The position numbers and the translations under genes are program-made. Positions 7,528-19,129 of a DNA stretch of 64,000 nt are shown in pieces (within the stretch, counting starts at the first letter, position 1; the number at the start of each line of letters is the position of its first letter). The stretch is taken from the NCBI GenBank assembly GCA_022710975.1, contig JAKLGA010000003.1:310001-374000 (forward strand), written 5' to 3'. Source of the stretch: Myxococcota bacterium. Its GTDB lineage: Bacteria > Myxococcota > B64-G9. The notes under the pieces are model-generated. The model was not told the origin of the DNA and searched no databases. It was given only the letters and a program-made list of their open reading frames with translations.

Positions 7528-10152
7528 TCAGGGCGCGAAGGCCAGGCGGAGGGTGATCGGGCCGGGTTGGGCCGGGGCGGAGACCCGCACCAGCCCGTCC
7601 TCGTCCACCTCGGCGCTCGCCCCCGCGGGTGACGTGAGCCCCACGAAGGCGTGGCCGTTCCCGTGGAAGGCGAGGGACACCGGCCCGGGCGCCGCGGCGA
7701 GGGTGAGCGAGAGCTCGCCCGTGCCCGCGTCCCAGCCCTCCGGCCCCAGGCCCACCCCGCCCAGCGTGATCTGCCGGTCCCAGCCCAGGAATTGCGGCCG
7801 GTCGAGCGCGGGCCGCACGGCCAGCGCCCGGGCGTCGTGGCTCGACACCGAGACCATGAACGGCTCCGCCTGCAGGCCCAGGTAGCGCTGCTGCCAGAAC
7901 TCGTACGCGTGCCAGGGCCCGGCTGGGAGCCCGAGCGCCTGCGGGTCGATCGGGTAGGCGCGGGTCTCGCCGTCGGGCAGCACGCCCGGCGGGTTCGAGG
8001 CGTGGTCCAGGTTGGCCCCCAGGTTGAGCAGCGCCACCCACAGCCAGGGCCCGGCCAGGCCGTCCTCTCCGCCCGCGACGAGCTTGGCGTACACCTCGGG
8101 GACCTCGCGGGTGAAGAGATCGAGCGGCCGGGCGGCCTGGGGGTGGACCGGCAGGAGCGCGCGCACCACCGCCAGCCGCTCCGGGTAGGGCGCCAGATCC
8201 TCGAGCAGCCGGTCGCCGAGCTTCGCGATGCCGCCCGTGGCCGCCACGAAGGTGGCGAAGGCCCGGCTCTCCTCGAGCGTGATGGGCGGGAGGTCCGGCC
8301 GGGTCGTGTCCGAGCGGAAGACCAGCAGATCGGGGTGGTTCACCCACACCCGGCCGTGCAGCCAGTAGCGCCGGGCCGCGTTGGCGATGGTCGGCTTGAA
8401 GCCCTGTCGCTCGAGCGCTCCGGGCTTCTCCGGGTAGCCGTCCCAGACCGGTAGGTTGTCCATGGTGGTGCGCATGCCGTCCACCAGCCCGTAGGTCACC
8501 CCCAGCAGCCCCACGTGCAGCAGGAAGGTCTGGTCGCCGAGCCCGGCCCGCAGCGCCTGGAGCCCGCGGCGGTAGACCTCCACCGCGGTGAGCCCGGGCT
8601 CGTGGAAGCCGCGGCACAGCATGAGGGGGTAGGCGAAGTCCATCTTGAGCCAGTCCACGCCCCAGTCCTCGCGCGCGCGCCGGCCGGTCTCCTCGAGGAA
8701 GGCCGCCACCTCCGGGTGGCTCGGGTCGAGCATGTGCAGGTCGGCAAACAGCACCCCGCCCCAACCCGAGCGCGGCGGGAACCAGCCCGGGTGCTCCGCG
8801 AGCAGGTCTGAGCCCTCCCGGGCGGTGAAGGGCGCCATCCACAGCCCGGGCCGCAGCCCGGCCGCGCGGATCTCGGACAGGATCCCGGCGCCAGCGGAGA
8901 AGCCCCCGGGGAAGCGATCCGCGCGCGGCTGCCAGTCGCCGTAGGCCGCCTGCCAGCCGTCGTCGATCTGGAACCAGGCCATGCCCCAGGGGGAGAGCTC
9001 GTCCCGCACCACGCCCAGGTTCGCGCGGATGCGCGCCTCGTCGGTGCCGTAGCCGCCGGTCGAGCCCGAGGTGCTCCACGAATTCCAGCCGTCGGGCACC
9101 CGCCCGCCCCGCTCGAGCCAGGTGCGGATGCCGAGGTGGTCGTGGACGGCGTCCGCGTACCCCTCGAGCGCCGTGAAGGCCGTGGCCGCCGGGTCCGGGG
9201 AGGCGCGGGAGGCCGAGAGCAGGATGGGCTCGGACAGGAGCTCCTGGCCCGGGGCGAGCGGCTTGCCCTCGGGCAGGTAGAGCACGTCCGCGGAGAACAG
9301 GCCGAGCCCCTGGCGACCGTCAGGCAGGGCGGCCGGGGGCGGGACGTCCGCGAGCCCCAGGACCGGGATGCCCCGCTCGACCGAGAGCGCGCCCGCCTGC
9401 CACACCCGGCCGGCCGGGCCGTCGAACACCAGGTGGCTCCAGTTGCTCTCCGAGTGGCCCTGCAGCCGGAAGGGCACCACGGCGTTCAGCGGATCGGCGG
9501 GCTTGTCGCCGGGCACGAGCTGGGCGACCTGGTCGGCCAGCACCCCGGAGCCGTTCTCCAGGATCCGCAGGGCCGCGGGCTCGCTGCCCAGGTACAGGCC
9601 ACCGCCCTCGCCGGCCCGGGCCCGGGCCGGGGCCAGCACCCAGACCGTGACCGGCGCCGCGCCCGCGTTGCGCACCCCCAGCCTGACCACCACGCCCGCG
9701 GCCAGCTCCACCGCCTCTGGCGCGCGGAGCTCCCAGCTCACCTCGAGCCCGTCCGCGCTCGCGGGGTAGCGCAGCCGCAGCACCTCCGCGGGCCCGAGCC
9801 CGTCCGACTCGGTCGTCCGCTCGAGCTCGGGCCGGCCGAGGTCCGCGGTCGACAGCTCGCGGGCGAAGCCGTCGAGCGCCAGGTGCCCGCGCGCCCCGCG
9901 CAGCACGAGCGCCCCGTCCGGGGCGTACAGATCGAACGCGCCGCGGGTGAGGCGGACGACCAGGCGCGTGCGGCCGGGCTCGCCCAGGTCCGCGCGCAGC
10001 CCCGCGGCCGGGTTGCACACCCCGGAGCCGCACAGCTCCTGCTCGGAGCAGTCGAGATCGGTCTGACAGGCCCCGGGCCCCCCGCGCCCGTCCCCGCAGC
10101 CCGCTGCCAGCAAGCCGGCCGCGAGGCCGGAGACGAGGTGGATCCAGCGCAT
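7528..10152 (-). CDS. Lipoprotein alpha-galactosidase-like glycoside hydrolase (GH36/melibiase type)
   Basis: 874 aa. ATG 10152 is chosen over the longer upstream frame because GAGGAG precedes it and a lipoprotein signal follows (MRWIHLVSGLAAGLLAAGC, lipobox Cys19). A short Cys-rich segment (CQTDLDCSEQELCGSGVC) follows, then an N-terminal beta-sandwich and a TIM barrel beginning near GWNSWSTSG. Clan GH-D features include FQIDDGW, WLKMDF (nucleophile candidate Asp505) and VDGMRTT (acid/base candidate Asp558). It should hydrolyse alpha-galactosidic or related linkages at the outer envelope; GH36 also contains other activities, so the substrate is not certain. It is divergently transcribed from the 10299 lipoprotein gene. 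Confidence 0.85.
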   Translation of the reverse strand: MRWIHLVSGLAAGLLAAGCGDGRGGPGACQTDLDCSEQELCGSGVCNPAAGLRADLGEPGRTRLVVRLTRGAFDLYAPDGALVLRGARGHLALDGFARELSTADLGRPELERTTESDGLGPAEVLRLRYPASADGLEVSWELRAPEAVELAAGVVVRLGVRNAGAAPVTVWVLAPARARAGEGGGLYLGSEPAALRILENGSGVLADQVAQLVPGDKPADPLNAVVPFRLQGHSESNWSHLVFDGPAGRVWQAGALSVERGIPVLGLADVPPPAALPDGRQGLGLFSADVLYLPEGKPLAPGQELLSEPILLSASRASPDPAATAFTALEGYADAVHDHLGIRTWLERGGRVPDGWNSWSTSGSTGGYGTDEARIRANLGVVRDELSPWGMAWFQIDDGWQAAYGDWQPRADRFPGGFSAGAGILSEIRAAGLRPGLWMAPFTAREGSDLLAEHPGWFPPRSGWGGVLFADLHMLDPSHPEVAAFLEETGRRAREDWGVDWLKMDFAYPLMLCRGFHEPGLTAVEVYRRGLQALRAGLGDQTFLLHVGLLGVTYGLVDGMRTTMDNLPVWDGYPEKPGALERQGFKPTIANAARRYWLHGRVWVNHPDLLVFRSDTTRPDLPPITLEESRAFATFVAATGGIAKLGDRLLEDLAPYPERLAVVRALLPVHPQAARPLDLFTREVPEVYAKLVAGGEDGLAGPWLWVALLNLGANLDHASNPPGVLPDGETRAYPIDPQALGLPAGPWHAYEFWQQRYLGLQAEPFMVSVSSHDARALAVRPALDRPQFLGWDRQITLGGVGLGPEGWDAGTGELSLTLAAAPGPVSLAFHGNGHAFVGLTSPAGASAEVDEDGLVRVSAPAQPGPITLRLAFAP

Positions 10153-10298
10153 GGCGGCTCCTCGCGGAAGTGGGCCTGGCCCATGCTCGCACCAACCCCG
10201 CGGCGGGGACAAGGAAGGAAGTTGAGGAATGACCGGTTGTGTGGTTGAAATGGACCCAGACAGCAAGGAATGAACGGGGACACATCGGGAGGTGGAAG

Positions 10299-12692: not shown

Positions 12693-14177
12693 TCAGGGGA
12701 TGGGTTCGGTGCACAGGGAGTCGAGCGCCTCGAACACGGGCACCAGCGCGGCGTAGTCGCTGTGCACGACCCCGCCCTGCGGGTCGTCGGTCATGTCGTA
12801 GTAGTAGCACCGCGCGGGTGGGACGCCGGACTGCACGTAGGCGGCCGCGTCGGTGTCCTTGTTGCCGAAGCCGTAGTCGGGCGGGTACCCGAGCTTGGCC
12901 GTGAGCAGGGCCAGCTCGGCCACCTTGTACTCGATGGCGGCCGCGCCCGAGGCGCCCAGGTGGTTCAGCGTGGTGTGCGAGACGCCCGGCGGGAAACCGC
13001 GTTCCACCAGCCACTCCTGGGTGCGGCCCTCCAGGAACTCGGGCCGCGCGGTCAGGTAGAAGATGTGGTAGCCCTTGCGGGCGAGCGCCCAGAAGGCGTC
13101 CGCCGCGCCCGGGTGCGCCTCCGGTGAGATGCTGAGCAGCGTGTCCCAGGCCTGGGCGTACTCGCTCGTGGTGAGCGTGCCGTCGATGTCCGTGACCACC
13201 ACCCGCGCGCCGGGCGGGAGGATGGTCAGGGAGGCGTCGGCCGTGGAGAGGTCGCCCTTGACCACGAAGTGGATGCGGTGCCGGCCGATCCCCAGGCGCT
13301 TCTCCTCCGGGATCCGGAAGAACACCCGCCCGCCCGTGTCCGCGACCCCCTCGACGGTGGGGTTGTCGTCGTCCTCGCTCGTGGTTGCCGTGCCCAGGTG
13401 CTCCCAGGTCTCGCAGTCGCGCAGCAGCCAGAGGTCCACGTCCTCGTCGTGGAGATCGGAGTCGGTCAGCAGCCCATAGGCGAACTTGGCGAGCGCCCAC
13501 TGCGGATCGCCCTCGGCCAGGAAGAGGTCTCGCCCCCGGTGGTAGGCCGTGCCGAGCGCCAGCAGGGCCGAGGTGCCGTGCCGCCAGTCGGCCTCCGGCC
13601 CCGGATCGGGCGGGGCGGCGTCGCAGGCCGGCGGATCCGGGCAGGGCACGAGCTGGCTGCCCCCCACGCAGACGCCGGCCCGGCAGGCGTCGTCCAGGGT
13701 CTCGGGCAGCCCGTCGTCGCACGGGCTGCCGTCCGCCTCGGCCGGGTTGGTGCAGGCGCCGATCCCGGGCTGGCAGGCGCCCGGCAGGTGGCAGGCCGCG
13801 GGCGCCGGGCACTCGACCGGCGAGGCGCCCTGGCACGCGCCCGCCTGGCAAGTGTCCACGGTCGTGCACCGGTCGCCGTCGTCGCAGGCGGCGCCGTCCG
13901 CGACAGGCCCCACGGCGCAGGCGCCCTGGTCGTCGCAGGCGGTCTGCTCGCAGGGGCCCACGGCCTGGCCCAGGGTGCAGGCCGTGCCCTGCGGGAGGGG
14001 GCTCGCCGCGCACTCGCCTCCGGTGCAGACCGCCGCCTGGCAGGCGGAGAGCTGGAGCTGGTCCAGGCAGTCGGCGTCCGCGCTGCAGAGCCCCAGGGGT
14101 CCCGAGTCGGAGCAGGCTGCGGACAGGGCCGCGCACGCGCCCGCGAGGCACAACCACCGCCGCGTCCAGATCCTCAT
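12693..14177 (-). CDS. Cys-rich lipoprotein with LNS2 (lipin/Smp2-like) phosphatase domain
   Basis: 494 aa, ATG 14177 with GGAGG upstream. The signal ends in a lipobox (..GACAALSAAC, Cys22). Residues ~25-185 are Cys-rich repeats (CDDGDRCTTVDTCQAGAC type). The C-terminal half contains VVTDIDGTLTTSEY (HAD motif I, Asp330/Asp332), FYLTARPEFL (motif II/III region) and YGFGNKDTDAAAY, the hallmark sequence of LNS2 domains of eukaryotic lipins and phosphatidylinositol-transfer proteins. Lipins dephosphorylate phosphatidate, so an envelope lipid phosphatase role is plausible but unproven. Having LNS2 in an exported lipoprotein is unusual. It converges on the NmrA-like gene with a 1-nt gap. Confidence 0.82.
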   Translation of the reverse strand: MRIWTRRWLCLAGACAALSAACSDSGPLGLCSADADCLDQLQLSACQAAVCTGGECAASPLPQGTACTLGQAVGPCEQTACDDQGACAVGPVADGAACDDGDRCTTVDTCQAGACQGASPVECPAPAACHLPGACQPGIGACTNPAEADGSPCDDGLPETLDDACRAGVCVGGSQLVPCPDPPACDAAPPDPGPEADWRHGTSALLALGTAYHRGRDLFLAEGDPQWALAKFAYGLLTDSDLHDEDVDLWLLRDCETWEHLGTATTSEDDDNPTVEGVADTGGRVFFRIPEEKRLGIGRHRIHFVVKGDLSTADASLTILPPGARVVVTDIDGTLTTSEYAQAWDTLLSISPEAHPGAADAFWALARKGYHIFYLTARPEFLEGRTQEWLVERGFPPGVSHTTLNHLGASGAAAIEYKVAELALLTAKLGYPPDYGFGNKDTDAAAYVQSGVPPARCYYYDMTDDPQGGVVHSDYAALVPVFEALDSLCTEPIP

Positions 14178-14219: not shown

Positions 14220-15164
14220 CTACTTCAGCTGCCCCGGCGACCAGGGCTGGCCCAGGGCGGCGGGGGCGAGGTGGCCGCGCTTCAGGGCCGCGGCCAGGAC
14301 CAGCACCAGGATGGCGGCCAGGTAGGGCAGCATGCCCAGCACGTAGCCCGCGTTGGGATCCTGGAAGAGCTGCAGGCCGCTGCCCTGGAGATCGAGCCCC
14401 AGGCGGGTGAGCGCGCCGAACAGGAGCGCCCCCAGGGCGATGCCCCAGGGGCGCCAGCCGCCCGCGATCACCAGCCCCAGGACGATCCAGCCCTGGCCCG
14501 CGGTCAGCCCGTCCACCCAGCCCGGGGTGACCGCCAGGCTGAGCGTGCCTCCGGCCAGGCCGGCCAGGGCCGCGCCGACCACCACGCACGTCGCGCGCAC
14601 CCGCTGCACCCGGATCCCCATGGCGGCCGCCGCGGCCGGGTGCTCGCCCGTCGCGGTGACCACGAGCCCCCAGCGGGTGCGGGTGAGCAGCAGGTGCACG
14701 GCCGGCAGCGCCAGGAAGGCCAGGTAGACCAGCCAGGGCTGGGAGAAGAGCGCCCGCCCGACCAGCGGCAGCTCCGCCAGGCCCGGGATGGGCGCGGGCC
14801 CGAAGCTGGGGGCGGCCTGGCCGACCAGCGCGGCCCCGCCGACCGAGGACAGCCCGGCGCCCAGGAACACCAGCGCCAGGCCCGAGACCACCTGGTCGCT
14901 CTTGAGGCCCACGGTCAGCCAGGCGTGCAGCAGGCCGAACAGCGCGCCCACGAGCACCGCCAGGGCCAGGCCGACCAGGGCGCAGCCCGTGGCCTGGGCC
15001 CCGGCCACCCCGGCCATGGCGCTGGCGAGCAGCACCCCCTCGAGCCCCAGGTTGAGCACCCCGGCCCGCTCGGCCCACAGCTCGCCGAGCGCCGCGAACA
15101 GCAGCGGCGCGCCGCGGGCCAGGGCCGCGCCGAGCAGCCCCTCGGTGATCTCCAGGCCGGTCAC
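14220..15164 (-). CDS. BMP-type ABC importer permease 2
   Basis: 314 aa from GTG 15164, which overlaps the TGA of permease 1 in GTGA, indicating translational coupling. It is a multi-pass membrane protein with the BPD_transp_2 layout: GELWAERAGVLNLGLEG (a nucleoside/simple-sugar permease signature, as in NupQ/YufQ), then about eight or nine hydrophobic segments ending in ILVLVLAAALKRG. It forms the second subunit of the heteromeric channel with the 15161-16276 product. It is the last gene of the operon. The substrate is probably a nucleoside or purine-like solute by family. No downstream T tract was noted. Confidence 0.88.
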   Translation of the reverse strand: MTGLEITEGLLGAALARGAPLLFAALGELWAERAGVLNLGLEGVLLASAMAGVAGAQATGCALVGLALAVLVGALFGLLHAWLTVGLKSDQVVSGLALVFLGAGLSSVGGAALVGQAAPSFGPAPIPGLAELPLVGRALFSQPWLVYLAFLALPAVHLLLTRTRWGLVVTATGEHPAAAAAMGIRVQRVRATCVVVGAALAGLAGGTLSLAVTPGWVDGLTAGQGWIVLGLVIAGGWRPWGIALGALLFGALTRLGLDLQGSGLQLFQDPNAGYVLGMLPYLAAILVLVLAAALKRGHLAPAALGQPWSPGQLK

Positions 15165-16276
15165 GGCGGCCCCTCCGGCGCGGGGCGGGCGGGCTCGGCC
15201 CGGCGCCGCCGGAGCATGTGGCGGCCGAAGAAGTCGGCGGCCACCACGCTTGTCAGGATGACGCCCTCGAGCAGGGTGGCGACGCCGCCCGGCTGGACCT
15301 GCTTGGCGCCGCTCAGCAGGCCCGCCAGGAGCACGGACACCAGCACCACCCCGGCCGGGTGCAGGCGCGCCAGCCAGGCCACCAGGATGGCCGCGTACCC
15401 GTAGCCGGGCGAGAAGTTCTGCTGCAGCCGGTGCACCACCCCGGACACCTCGCACATGCCGGCCAGGCCCGCCAGCCCGCCCGAGAGCGCCATGGCGAGC
15501 AGCATGTTGCGGCCGACCGGCATGCCCGCCGCCCGGGCGGCGCGCTCGCTCACCCCGGCGACCTTGAGCTCGAAGCCCAGCCGGGTGCGGTGGTCGAGCG
15601 CCCACACCGCCAGCGCGGCCAGGAGCGCCAGGGGGAAGCCCGCGTGCAGCGTCAGGCCCGCCAGCGCCGGCCAGGTGTCCGCCAGGGCCGACAGGCGCGG
15701 CAGCCAGGCCGCCTCGGGGAACAGCGGCGTCATCTGGAAGCCGCGATCGCTCCAGGCGGAGTAGATGAACAGGTTGTTCCACTGCACCGCCACGTAGGTC
15801 AGCATGAGCGTGGTCAGGATCTCGCTCACCCCCAGCCGCGCGCGCAGCAGGCCCGGCAGCGCGCCCCACAGCGCCCCGCCGGCGAAGCCCGCCAGCGCCA
15901 TGAGCGGCAGGACGAGCGCGCCCGGCGTGTCCGCGGGCAGCCAGAAGCTGGCCACCCCGGCCGCGGCCCAGGCGCCCAGGAAGAGCTGGCCCTCGGCGCC
16001 CACGTTCCACAGGCCGGCGCGGAAGGCCAGCGCGCAGCCCAGGCCGCACAGCATGAGCGGAGTGGCCTTGGTGAGCGTGTCCGAGAGCGCCCACGGTCCG
16101 CCGGTGAAGGCGGCGCGCAGGATGGTGGCGTAGGCCTCGGCCGCGGACGCGCCCAGGAGCTCGAGCAGCAGGGCGCCGAGCCCCAGGCCGACCAGCAGCC
16201 CGAGGAGCGAGCCGCGCGCCTGCGTCCAGGCGGACTCCCGCGCCCGGGGCGCGATCTCCAGGCCGGGCAGCCTCAT
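15161..16276 (-). CDS. BMP-type ABC importer permease 1
   Basis: 371 aa, ATG 16276 overlapping the ATPase stop (ATGA). About ten hydrophobic segments; the central GCALAFRAGLWNVGAEGQLFLG is the family signature of YufP/NupP-type permeases (BPD_transp_2), and LGVSEILTTLMLTYVAVQ is likewise conserved. The C-terminal tail is Arg/Pro-rich and cytoplasmic. It acts in the inner membrane with permease 2 and the twin-domain ATPase to import the ligand of the 17836-19062 lipoprotein. Confidence 0.88.
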   Translation of the reverse strand: MRLPGLEIAPRARESAWTQARGSLLGLLVGLGLGALLLELLGASAAEAYATILRAAFTGGPWALSDTLTKATPLMLCGLGCALAFRAGLWNVGAEGQLFLGAWAAAGVASFWLPADTPGALVLPLMALAGFAGGALWGALPGLLRARLGVSEILTTLMLTYVAVQWNNLFIYSAWSDRGFQMTPLFPEAAWLPRLSALADTWPALAGLTLHAGFPLALLAALAVWALDHRTRLGFELKVAGVSERAARAAGMPVGRNMLLAMALSGGLAGLAGMCEVSGVVHRLQQNFSPGYGYAAILVAWLARLHPAGVVLVSVLLAGLLSGAKQVQPGGVATLLEGVILTSVVAADFFGRHMLRRRRAEPARPAPEGPP

Positions 16277-17826
16277 GCCAGCCCCGCCATGAGCGCGCCG
16301 GCGGCGCCCCGCTCGAAGGGCGGCCCGGGCAGCGGCGGCGACAGCCGGCCGCGGTAGAGGACGCGCACCTCGTCGCCGAGCTCGAGCACCTCGTCGAGGT
16401 CGCTGGACAGGAGCAGCACGGCCGCGCCCGCGAGGGCCGCCTGGCGCAGGCGGGCCCGCACGGCGGCGGCCGCGCCCAGATCGAGCCCCTGGGTGGGCTG
16501 GTGCACGAGCAGCACCCGCGGGGCCTCGAGCAGCTCCCGGCCCAGCAGCAGCTTCTGGAGATTCCCGCCGGACAGCGCCGCGCTCGGGGCCGCCAGCCCC
16601 GGCGCGACCACCTGGAGCTCGGCCAGGACGCGGGCGGCGTGCGCCTCGAGCGCGCGCGGGTGGAGCCACCCGAGCGGCCCCCGGGCCAGGCGGCGGTAGG
16701 CCCGCAGGCCCGCGCTCTCCGCGACGGTCAGTCGCCCGTCGGTCGCCTCCCCGTGGCGATCCTCGGCCAGGAAGCCGACGCCGCGGGCCAGGAACTCCCG
16801 GGCCGGCCGGCCGGTCACGTCCTGCCCCTCCAGCAGCACCCGGCCGGAGTGCGGCGCGAGCAGCCCGGCGCAGGCCGCGGCCAGCTCGCCCTGGCCGTTG
16901 CCGGCCACGCCGGCCACCCCGCAGACGCGCCCGGGCCGGAGCGCGAGCGAGACCTCCGACAGGCGCACGATCCCGTCCACGACCACGCTGACCTGGTCCA
17001 GGGCGAGGCGGGGTTGCGCCGACCGATCGGACCGATCGGTCGGATCGGTCGGATCGGTCCGATCTCCGGGCGCCGGGCCGGCCTCGGTCATGCCCACCAT
17101 CATCCCGGCGAGCTGCTGCGCGTTCACCTGGCCGCGTTCGACCCCCTCGGCCAGCGTGCGGCCGCGGTGCAGCACGCTGATGCGATCGGCCACCTCCAGG
17201 ATCTCGGGCAGCTTGTGGCTGACGAACAGCACGGCCACCCCCTCGGCCGCGAGCCTTCGCATGACGGCGAACAGGCGGCCGGCCTCGTCCGGGGTGAGCA
17301 CCGCGGTGGGCTCGTCCAGGAGGAGCACGCGCGCCTCGCGGCTGAGCGCCCGCGCCAGCGCCACGCGCTGCTTCTCGCCCGCGGACAGCGTCTCCACGCG
17401 CGCGTCCAGGGGGAGCTCCAGCCCGAGCCGGGCGGCCAGGCGCTCGAGCTCCTGACGCAGCCGGCGGCGAGGCAGCACGAAGGCCCGCGCCCGGTCCCAG
17501 CCCAGCAGCAGGTTGTCGAGCACGCTGAGGCGCTCGACCAGCAGGTAGGACTGGAACACCATGGCCACCCCGGCCCGCTGGGCCTCGCGCGGCGAGGCGA
17601 AGCGGCGCGGGCTCCCGGCCAGGCGCAGCTCCCCCGCCTCCGGGCGCAGCAGACCGGCGGCCACGTGGGCGAGCGTGCTCTTGCCGGCCCCGTTCTCGCC
17701 CACCAGCGCGTGCACCTCGCCGGCCCGCAGCCGGAGCCCGGCGCCGTCGCAGGCCAGCGTCCCGGGGAAGCGCACGCGGATGCCGCGGAGCTCGAGCGCC
17801 GCGGGGCTCGGGGCGGGAGCGGGCAT
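16273..17826 (-). CDS. Twin-domain ABC importer ATPase (nucleoside/simple-sugar type)
   Basis: 517 aa, ATG 17826, 9 nt after the substrate-binding protein stop. Domain 1 has Walker A GENGAGKST, signature LSAGEKQR, Walker B VLLLDEPTAVLTPDE and the switch His in FVSHKL. Domain 2 has the degenerate Walker A (GVAGVAGNGQGEL) and signature LSGGNLQK normal for the second half of this family (YufO, RbsA, MglA). Between them the linker contains an Asp/Thr/Arg/Ser run (residues ~254-269) encoded by a palindromic 9-mer repeat (17020-17064). It energises import through the two permeases. No clear Shine-Dalgarno; translation is probably coupled. Confidence 0.9.
   Translation of the reverse strand: MPAPAPSPAALELRGIRVRFPGTLACDGAGLRLRAGEVHALVGENGAGKSTLAHVAAGLLRPEAGELRLAGSPRRFASPREAQRAGVAMVFQSYLLVERLSVLDNLLLGWDRARAFVLPRRRLRQELERLAARLGLELPLDARVETLSAGEKQRVALARALSREARVLLLDEPTAVLTPDEAGRLFAVMRRLAAEGVAVLFVSHKLPEILEVADRISVLHRGRTLAEGVERGQVNAQQLAGMMVGMTEAGPAPGDRTDPTDPTDRSDRSAQPRLALDQVSVVVDGIVRLSEVSLALRPGRVCGVAGVAGNGQGELAAACAGLLAPHSGRVLLEGQDVTGRPAREFLARGVGFLAEDRHGEATDGRLTVAESAGLRAYRRLARGPLGWLHPRALEAHAARVLAELQVVAPGLAAPSAALSGGNLQKLLLGRELLEAPRVLLVHQPTQGLDLGAAAAVRARLRQAALAGAAVLLLSSDLDEVLELGDEVRVLYRGRLSPPLPGPPFERGAAGALMAGLA
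17020..17064. repeat. Tandem palindromic GATCGG(A/T)CC repeat inside the ABC ATPase linker
   Basis: About 45 bases made of overlapping GATCGGACC/GATCGGTCG 9-mers that read nearly the same on both strands. It stays in frame in the ATPase gene and encodes the TDPTDPTDRSDRS-like linker between the two ATP-binding domains. It is low-complexity and hairpin-prone, unlike the flanking sequence. Confidence 0.75.
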
Positions 17827-17835
17827 GGTGGGGGG

Positions 17836-19062
17836 CTAGTGCCCGCCCGAGGGCAGGCTGCCCTCGATGCCGTCTGCCAACCAGCCCATGCAGGTGGTGC
17901 AGTCCAGCCGGCCGGGCACGCCCTTGAGGCCCTCGAGGTCCTCCTGGGTCAGGCGCTTGCCCTCCGGCACCACCAGCCGGCCCTGGTTGTCGCGGATGGG
18001 CCCGGAGAAGACGCCGAAGCGATCGAGCTCGCCCCGGCGCATCTTCTCGCGCAGGTCCCTCACCTCGGCCACGGCCGCGGCCGGGATGCCCGGGTGGGGC
18101 GTCTGGCCGGGCTCGAAGCCCAGCAGGCCCACCAGCTCGCTGTCCGCGTCCGGGTACAGGTCCCCGGGCTTCCAGGTCCCGGCGCGGATCTGCTCCACGA
18201 TGCGCTGGTAGGTCGGCCCCCAGTTCCAGTAGGTCGTGGTCAGGCAGCGCTCGGGCGCCGCCTCGCAGGCGTTCTGCGAGTCGTAGCCGATGCCCCAGCG
18301 GCCGGCGGCCGCGGCCGCCACGACCGGTCCCGGGGTGTCGGCGCCGGTCACCACCACGTAGGCCCCGCCCGCCAGCAGCGACTGGGCGGCCTCCTTCTCC
18401 TTGACCGGATCGAACCAGGAGTGGATCCAGCGCAACTGGATGGTGCACGCGGGGCAGGAGCGCCGCACCCCGAGGGCGAAGGCGTTCAGCAGCCGCACCA
18501 CCTCGGGGATGGGGAAGGGCTCCACCGCGCCGAGCGTCTTCTGCCCGTCCGCGGCCGCGCGCGCGCCGGCGATCACCCCGGCCAGGTAGCGCATGCACTC
18601 CATGGCGCCCATCAGGTTGGCGAGGTTCCGCTCGTTCTTGCGGAAGCCGGAGACGTGCACGAAGCGGGTGGCCGGGAACTCGGAGGCGACCTGGGCGGTC
18701 GCGTCCATGAAGCCGAACGAGGTGGTCACCACCAGGTCGTAGCCGTCCCGGGCGAGCGAGCGCACCAGCGCCTCGGCCTCGGCGCCCTCGGCCACGCTCT
18801 CGAAGGCCTTGGTCACCACGCCCGGCACGTGCTGCTCGAGGTGCTTGCGGCCCGCGTCGTGGGCGAAGGTCCAGCCGCCGTCGCCCACCGGACCGACGTA
18901 CACGAAGGCCACCCGGAAGGGCTTCGCCGCCGGGGCCGCGGCCGGGGGCTGGGCCACGTCCGGGCCGCCCGCGCCCGCCGGGCCGGCCGCCGGCTCGCTC
19001 CTGGTGCAGGCCGCGCCCAGCGCCAGGGCGAGGGCCGCCACCACCCACGTCTTCGCATGCAT
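17836..19062 (-). CDS. BMP-family substrate-binding lipoprotein of the ABC importer
   Basis: 408 aa if started at ATG 19062, which lies 6 nt after GGAGGAG; the in-frame ATG at 19068 abuts that site directly and is less likely. The signal MHAKTWVVAALALALGAAC ends in a lipobox. The mature protein begins FRVAFVYVGPVGDGGWTFAHDAG, diagnostic of the BMP (Med/BmpA) family, and contains GYDLVVTTSFGFMDAT and GIGYDSQNAC, typical binding-cleft motifs. Family members bind nucleosides or purines. The C-terminus has an extra CTTCMGW pair of Cys. First gene of the leftward four-gene importer operon, divergent from the trypsin-like protease. Confidence 0.9.
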   Translation of the reverse strand: MHAKTWVVAALALALGAACTRSEPAAGPAGAGGPDVAQPPAAAPAAKPFRVAFVYVGPVGDGGWTFAHDAGRKHLEQHVPGVVTKAFESVAEGAEAEALVRSLARDGYDLVVTTSFGFMDATAQVASEFPATRFVHVSGFRKNERNLANLMGAMECMRYLAGVIAGARAAADGQKTLGAVEPFPIPEVVRLLNAFALGVRRSCPACTIQLRWIHSWFDPVKEKEAAQSLLAGGAYVVVTGADTPGPVVAAAAAGRWGIGYDSQNACEAAPERCLTTTYWNWGPTYQRIVEQIRAGTWKPGDLYPDADSELVGLLGFEPGQTPHPGIPAAAVAEVRDLREKMRRGELDRFGVFSGPIRDNQGRLVVPEGKRLTQEDLEGLKGVPGRLDCTTCMGWLADGIEGSLPSGGH

Positions 19063-19129
19063 GCTCATCTCCTCCAGGGCCCGTACCGTACCCCGGTCGC
19101 GGGCCGGGATCAATCGGCGGCGCGGGGTC

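Follow-up and report, generated by a model that had tools for sequence, protein, structure and literature searches.

The product of ORF 12693-14177, encoded on the reverse strand of the window (the whole stretch of 64,000 nucleotides that was analysed), is, as judged from its domain content, predicted fold, catalytic-residue conservation and export signals, a bacterial, exported and catalytically intact counterpart of the LNS2 module of animal Nir2. Lipins and Nir LNS2 domains are presented as eukaryotic and cytosolic in the literature searched, and no published account of bacterial lipin/Nir-type LNS2 members was found in that literature, the coverage of which was incomplete; domain annotations for such proteins probably exist already in public databases. 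The explanation that we favour as a whole, by a small preference, is that the protein would act as an outer-envelope phosphomonoesterase, probably for lipids of the phosphatidic acid (PA) type.

Gene layout and family assignment

The ORF shows a GC content by codon position of 0.71/0.55/0.97, typical of real genes in the same genome. The gene, its parts and the neighbouring transporter are located as follows:

12693-14177 (-), whole gene; ORF of 494 aa, stop included
14112-14177 (-), signal peptide and lipobox with putatively lipidated Cys22 (aa 1-22); N-terminus pattern
13563-14114 (-), Cys-rich repeat stalk (aa 22-205); Cys count, repeats elsewhere in the genome
13221-13547 (-), PITM1-3 beta-sandwich, Ig-like (aa 211-319); PF24695 E 1.9e-18, AlphaFold model
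12801-13199 (-), LNS2 HAD phosphatase domain (aa 327-459); PF24694 E 2.2e-17, PF08235 E 2.3e-14, Foldseek to Nir2 and TtPah2
13176-13190 (-), motif I DIDGT (aa 330-334), nucleophile D330 and acid/base D332; sequence, alignment
13161-13163 (-), E339, at the position of TtPah2 Asp155 (lipin signature residue); alignment, PMC12657724
13041-13058 (-), motif II YLTARP (aa 374-379), T376 and R378; alignment, PMC12357310
12924-12926 (-), motif III K418; 75/75 aligned members
12849-12866 (-), motif IV GNKDTD (aa 438-443), N439 and D443, with K440 at the TtPah2 Arg269 position; alignment
14220-19065 or, counted more widely, 14220-19113 (-), PnrA/BMP-type ABC transporter, nucleoside-type, complete; a neighbour outside the family

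The N-terminus, MRIWTRRWLCLAGACAALSAAC followed by SDSG, has by pattern what defines a bacterial lipoprotein, i.e. a signal peptide and a lipobox ending in Cys; the lipobox (LSAA-C22) is acceptable but not textbook, with a Ser at -3 that is permitted but off consensus. It leads into a stalk with 23 Cys within aa 22-200. Repeats resembling this stalk were found at 57 other places of the assembly, the majority within very large ORFs, and the linkers differ among relatives of the protein; the stalk is read as a generic spacer. Elsewhere in the same genome (G000:C27:53137-64422), ORFs of 1965 and 2577 aa are made up of many copies of the stalk-type Cys-rich repeat. A previous reading of the DNA by a model (hereafter the sequence-only reading) had proposed a lipin-like phosphatase domain outside the cytoplasm on a Cys-rich lipoprotein, and this location is supported. 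The lipobox, stalk and LNS2 domain of its layout were confirmed, but the beta-sandwich that precedes the HAD domain had been missed. The motifs that it had named (DIDGT, YLTAR and FGNKDTDAAAY, the last at aa 437-447) are all in place, and only a short tail lies C-terminal to the HAD domain.

In Pfam searches the protein matched all three PITM/LNS2 models over their curated cut-offs: the PITM1-3 beta-sandwich (PF24695) with 66.9 bits and LNS2_PITM1-3 (PF24694) with 63.7 bits, both with cut-offs of 27.7, and LNS2 (PF08235) with 53.8 bits. Acid_phosphat_B (PF03767) was just over its cut-off of 27 (E 1.8e-6, 28.1 bits), and the catalytic domain of APP1 (PF09949), also a HAD phosphatidate phosphatase, showed a weak similarity (E 2e-4, 21.6 bits) under its curated cut-off of 27.1. 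The NCBIfam search gave no match over cut-off, the lipoprotein e(P4) model (TIGR01533) reaching E 0.35 and 10 bits versus a cut-off of 216. HAD-IIIB acid phosphatases and e(P4) resemble the protein in that they are HAD phosphatases that are exported, in some cases as lipoproteins, but they match far more weakly than LNS2 and lack the beta-sandwich; an acid phosphatase or e(P4) identity was ruled out by the scores, and a chance motif match by profile, fold and family conservation. The domain thus proved to be a genuine LNS2 HAD domain, and neither of the findings that the sequence-only reading had named as refuting it (a better match to acid phosphatase/HAD-IIIB families, or loss of the second catalytic Asp) was obtained, D332 being present.

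Searches of the PDB pointed to Nir2 in particular. With the single sequence, Nir2 was matched with E 2e-22 and the lipin TtPah2 with E 3e-8, while a profile of the 75-member family alignment gave E 1e-57 for Nir2 (198 bits, both domains) versus 3e-23 for TtPah2 (86 bits, mainly the HAD part). The structure comparison proposed beforehand gave the same order: when an AlphaFold model of the domain module (pLDDT 95.4, pTM 0.93) was run in Foldseek, nine chains from the C-terminal domain of Nir2 headed the PDB matches, the PA complex 9jtz among them, with E 1.7e-23, TMt up to 0.90 and an rmsd of 2.3 A, followed by TtPah2 with TM 0.50-0.65. At the level of the superfamily the term lipin-like is valid, but the closest relation is to the Nir2/PITPNM module. 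With the C-terminal LNS2 region of Nir2/PITPNM1 (PDB 9jtz, 9jz1, 9jzp) the protein shares both domains and their order; the beta-sandwich, found in 73/75 family members, is directly followed by LNS2_PITM1-3, found in 75/75. In Nir2, however, this region sits within a large cytosolic protein for lipid transfer, whereas the bacterial protein is exported and stand-alone. No other Pfam domains were detected in the 494-aa lipoprotein, the PITP and DDHD parts of PITPNM being absent; it is a bearer of the PITPNM LNS2 module and not a PITPNM protein. With lipin/Pah enzymes (TtPah2, PDB 6tzy, 7lhk, 9d13-9d16; yeast Pah1) it has in common the layout of an Ig-like domain plus a capless HAD domain, but it is more distant from them, lacks the N-Lip/C-Lip split, and is exported while lipins are cytosolic. 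Where lipins have a long N-terminal amphipathic helix, the model contains only a 6-residue helix (domain residues 12-17), and the lipid anchor could replace this type of membrane-binding element.

Distribution and export of the bacterial family

The presence of LNS2 in a bacterium, which the sequence-only reading had pointed out, is not an isolated case, since the exported family is spread over several bacterial phyla. A search with the beta-sandwich model located it in 26/195 Myxococcota genomes, after removal of HIUase-like partial matches, versus 2/369 in Gammaproteobacteria and 1/398 in Bacillota (p below 1e-10; the latter two counts include the genome on which each search was centred). 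The tree agrees with the assignment of the window to Myxococcota. Named holders are Sorangium cellulosum So0157-2, which has two family copies, Polyangium, Marinomonas, Pseudoalteromonas, Hahella, Microbulbifer, Paenibacillus, Baia and Orenia, and a plasmid search matched two Pseudoalteromonas megaplasmids, in which the product is unnamed. L035 and L039, from one genome (G009), are divergent paralogues with DIDAT instead of DIDGT as motif I. L073 lies on a contig titled as a Klebsiella pneumoniae MAG and groups with Deltaproteobacteria MAGs in the tree, so that it probably comes from a mislabelled or contaminated bin. Weak matches to the beta-sandwich alone in G171, G095, G097 and three gammaproteobacterial genomes were short, covered profile positions of about 37-82 and were transthyretin/HIUase-like, and were not counted. 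L036, L037, L038 and L125-L127 are short, transthyretin-like/HIUase-looking proteins weakly matched by PF24695 over positions of about 37-82, and represent a false-positive risk.

Since the picking of start codons favours hydrophobic N-termini, flanking genes were run as a control with comparable picking. A signal-like N-terminus was present in 74/75 family members versus 147/358 flanking genes, and a signal together with a lipobox in 48/75 versus 45/358. Because of this enrichment, the exported state is, as predicted from the N-termini, a trait of the bacterial family.

Many Myxococcota are predators. Export, together with the concentration of the family in this phylum, would fit the suggestion of the sequence-only reading that the protein may attack prey or host lipids, but nothing links the protein to either. 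The family is also present in Paenibacillus, Baia, Orenia, Marinomonas and Pseudoalteromonas, most of the sampled Myxococcota genomes lack it, no secretion-system or toxin neighbours were seen in the loci examined, and a lipobox implies retention on the cell. We give this possibility the lowest probability of those considered.

Active site, gene neighbourhood and substrate

The residues that yeast Pah1 has been shown to require (PMC12357310), and that lie in the TtPah2 active site (PMC7066176), map to D330, D332, T376, R378, K418, G438, N439 and D443. The mapped residues are identical in 70-75 of the 75 aligned members, the T376 position being T or S; D330, D332, T334, K418, G438, N439 and D443 are identical in all 75. 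As these members were collected with the DxDGT pattern, the invariance of DxDGT among them is partly built in. The beta-sandwich model, used by itself, gave an independent set of 26 Myxococcota proteins; 24 of these match D.D[GS]T and two read DIDAT, with both Asp retained in 26/26. The bacterial protein thus has all motif I-IV catalytic residues of lipin/Pah, plus the motif II Arg (R378 here) that is reported to be conserved in these enzymes and not in other HAD phosphatases (PMC12357310). Nir2, in contrast, reads SIDGS and GYGS, without the nucleophile and the motif IV Asn, and according to a published description the catalytic Asp and a further residue that coordinates Mg are missing from Nir LNS2 domains (PMC12419160). 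Because the essential residues are conserved, with both Asp in every protein of the independent set, we strongly infer an active Mg-dependent phosphatase chemistry, and consider it highly probable that the protein is an enzyme. The closest relative with a solved structure, Nir2, is a pseudophosphatase that binds PA, and by analogy the bacterial protein might be a catalytically idle PA binder serving as envelope lipid sensor or adhesin. This seems very improbable, given that D330, D332, T376, R378, K418, N439 and D443 are invariant or nearly so, which would be unexpected without selection for catalysis.

In the mechanism that we propose, lipidated Cys22 would anchor the lipoprotein, probably to the outer envelope, with the Cys-rich repeats as a spacer, and the protein would present a HAD phosphatase that has no cap and packs against an Ig-like beta-sandwich. 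Following HAD chemistry, D330 would attack the phosphate of a phosphomonoester to form a phospho-aspartate, to be resolved by D332 via water; D330 and N439 would bind Mg, as would D443 through water, and the transition state would be stabilised by K418 and T376. The likeliest substrate would be a lipid phosphomonoester exposed at a membrane, either phosphatidic or lysophosphatidic acid, yielding diacylglycerol or monoacylglycerol and phosphate.

With regard to the substrate, Asp155 and Arg269 of TtPah2 constitute the lipin/Pah signature for PA recognition, and the R269K change leaves <5% of PAP activity (Vitkovska et al., PMC12657724). In the protein studied here the aligned pair is Glu339/Lys440. 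Across the 75 aligned members it is Asp/Ala in 39, Glu/Arg in 13, Glu/Thr in 9, Glu/Lys in 7, Glu/Met in 4 and other combinations in 3, and Asp plus Arg occurs in 0/75. A coupling between the two positions (Asp with Ala/Ser; Glu with Arg/Thr/Lys/Met) looked striking in the table but was dropped, because the combinations are clade-wise, with only two Asp/Glu changes on the tree, and are not independent. As the pair is replaced across the family, a lipin-style specificity for phosphatidate is not to be assumed. The structure of Nir2 with PA and the layout of an Ig-like plus a capless HAD domain would still make PA the leading substrate candidate, with a soluble substrate as a serious rival; for a lipid substrate of any kind we put the chances slightly above even.

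The PnrA/BMP transporter, formed by a Bmp substrate-binding lipoprotein, a double ABC ATPase and two BPD_transp_2 permeases, ends 42 bp upstream of the LNS2 gene on the same strand; downstream there is a convergent NmrA-like gene. This proximity, the non-conserved PA-recognition pair and the weak Acid_phosphat_B similarity noted above would be in line with an extracytoplasmic phosphatase for soluble phosphomonoesters, e.g. nucleotides, which would release phosphate or feed nucleosides to the adjacent transporter. Lipoprotein e(P4) acid phosphatases have such a role for nicotinamide nucleotides. However, the transporter was not found beside the examined relatives in the same taxonomic family, where other neighbours occur, nor did an all-against-all comparison of flanks reveal any shared partner, save local synteny in close species; the two-domain architecture and R378 are moreover of the lipid-phosphatase/Nir2 type. 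The soluble-substrate alternative is on these grounds rather unlikely, and an operon function with the nucleoside-type transporter was rejected because the transporter was not found beside the relatives examined. Among 20 flanking genes from 12 loci nothing recurrent was seen, nor any pointer to lipid metabolism, which weighs against the favoured explanation, and the LNS2 gene behaves as a stand-alone unit. Further along the window, 7531-10266 (-) encodes a lipoprotein-like product with a Melibiase (GH36-type) domain (PF02065, E 6e-10), which suggests an exported alpha-galactosidase-like enzyme.

Relation to animal Nir2 and implications

The phylogeny of bacterial LNS2 proteins had also been proposed beforehand. 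A tree of 90 rows with only one animal sequence places Nir2 inside the bacterial family, beside L064, L065 and L067 (SH-aLRT 88), but the AU test does not reject a tree in which the bacteria form a single clade (p-AU 0.32) and the outgroup is a very long branch. The best bacterial BLAST match of Nir2 has 36% identity over 262 residues (E 3e-44). It is conceivable, though we hold it only tentatively and rather doubt it, that the LNS2 domain of metazoan Nir/RdgB stems from the exported, enzymatically active bacterial proteins, having been acquired via gene transfer and turned into a PA sensor with loss of the catalytic Asp; transfer in the reverse direction or shared descent would also be conceivable. 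If true, the PA sensor of animal Nir/RdgB proteins would be a repurposed bacterial lipid phosphatase.

A conserved family of exported bacterial proteins that are built like Nir2 and have an intact active site would provide Nir/RdgB with a catalytic relative open to testing, and would make it natural to compare how PA recognition and catalysis separated. For the bacteria that carry it, it may represent a HAD-type extracytoplasmic phosphatidate phosphatase.
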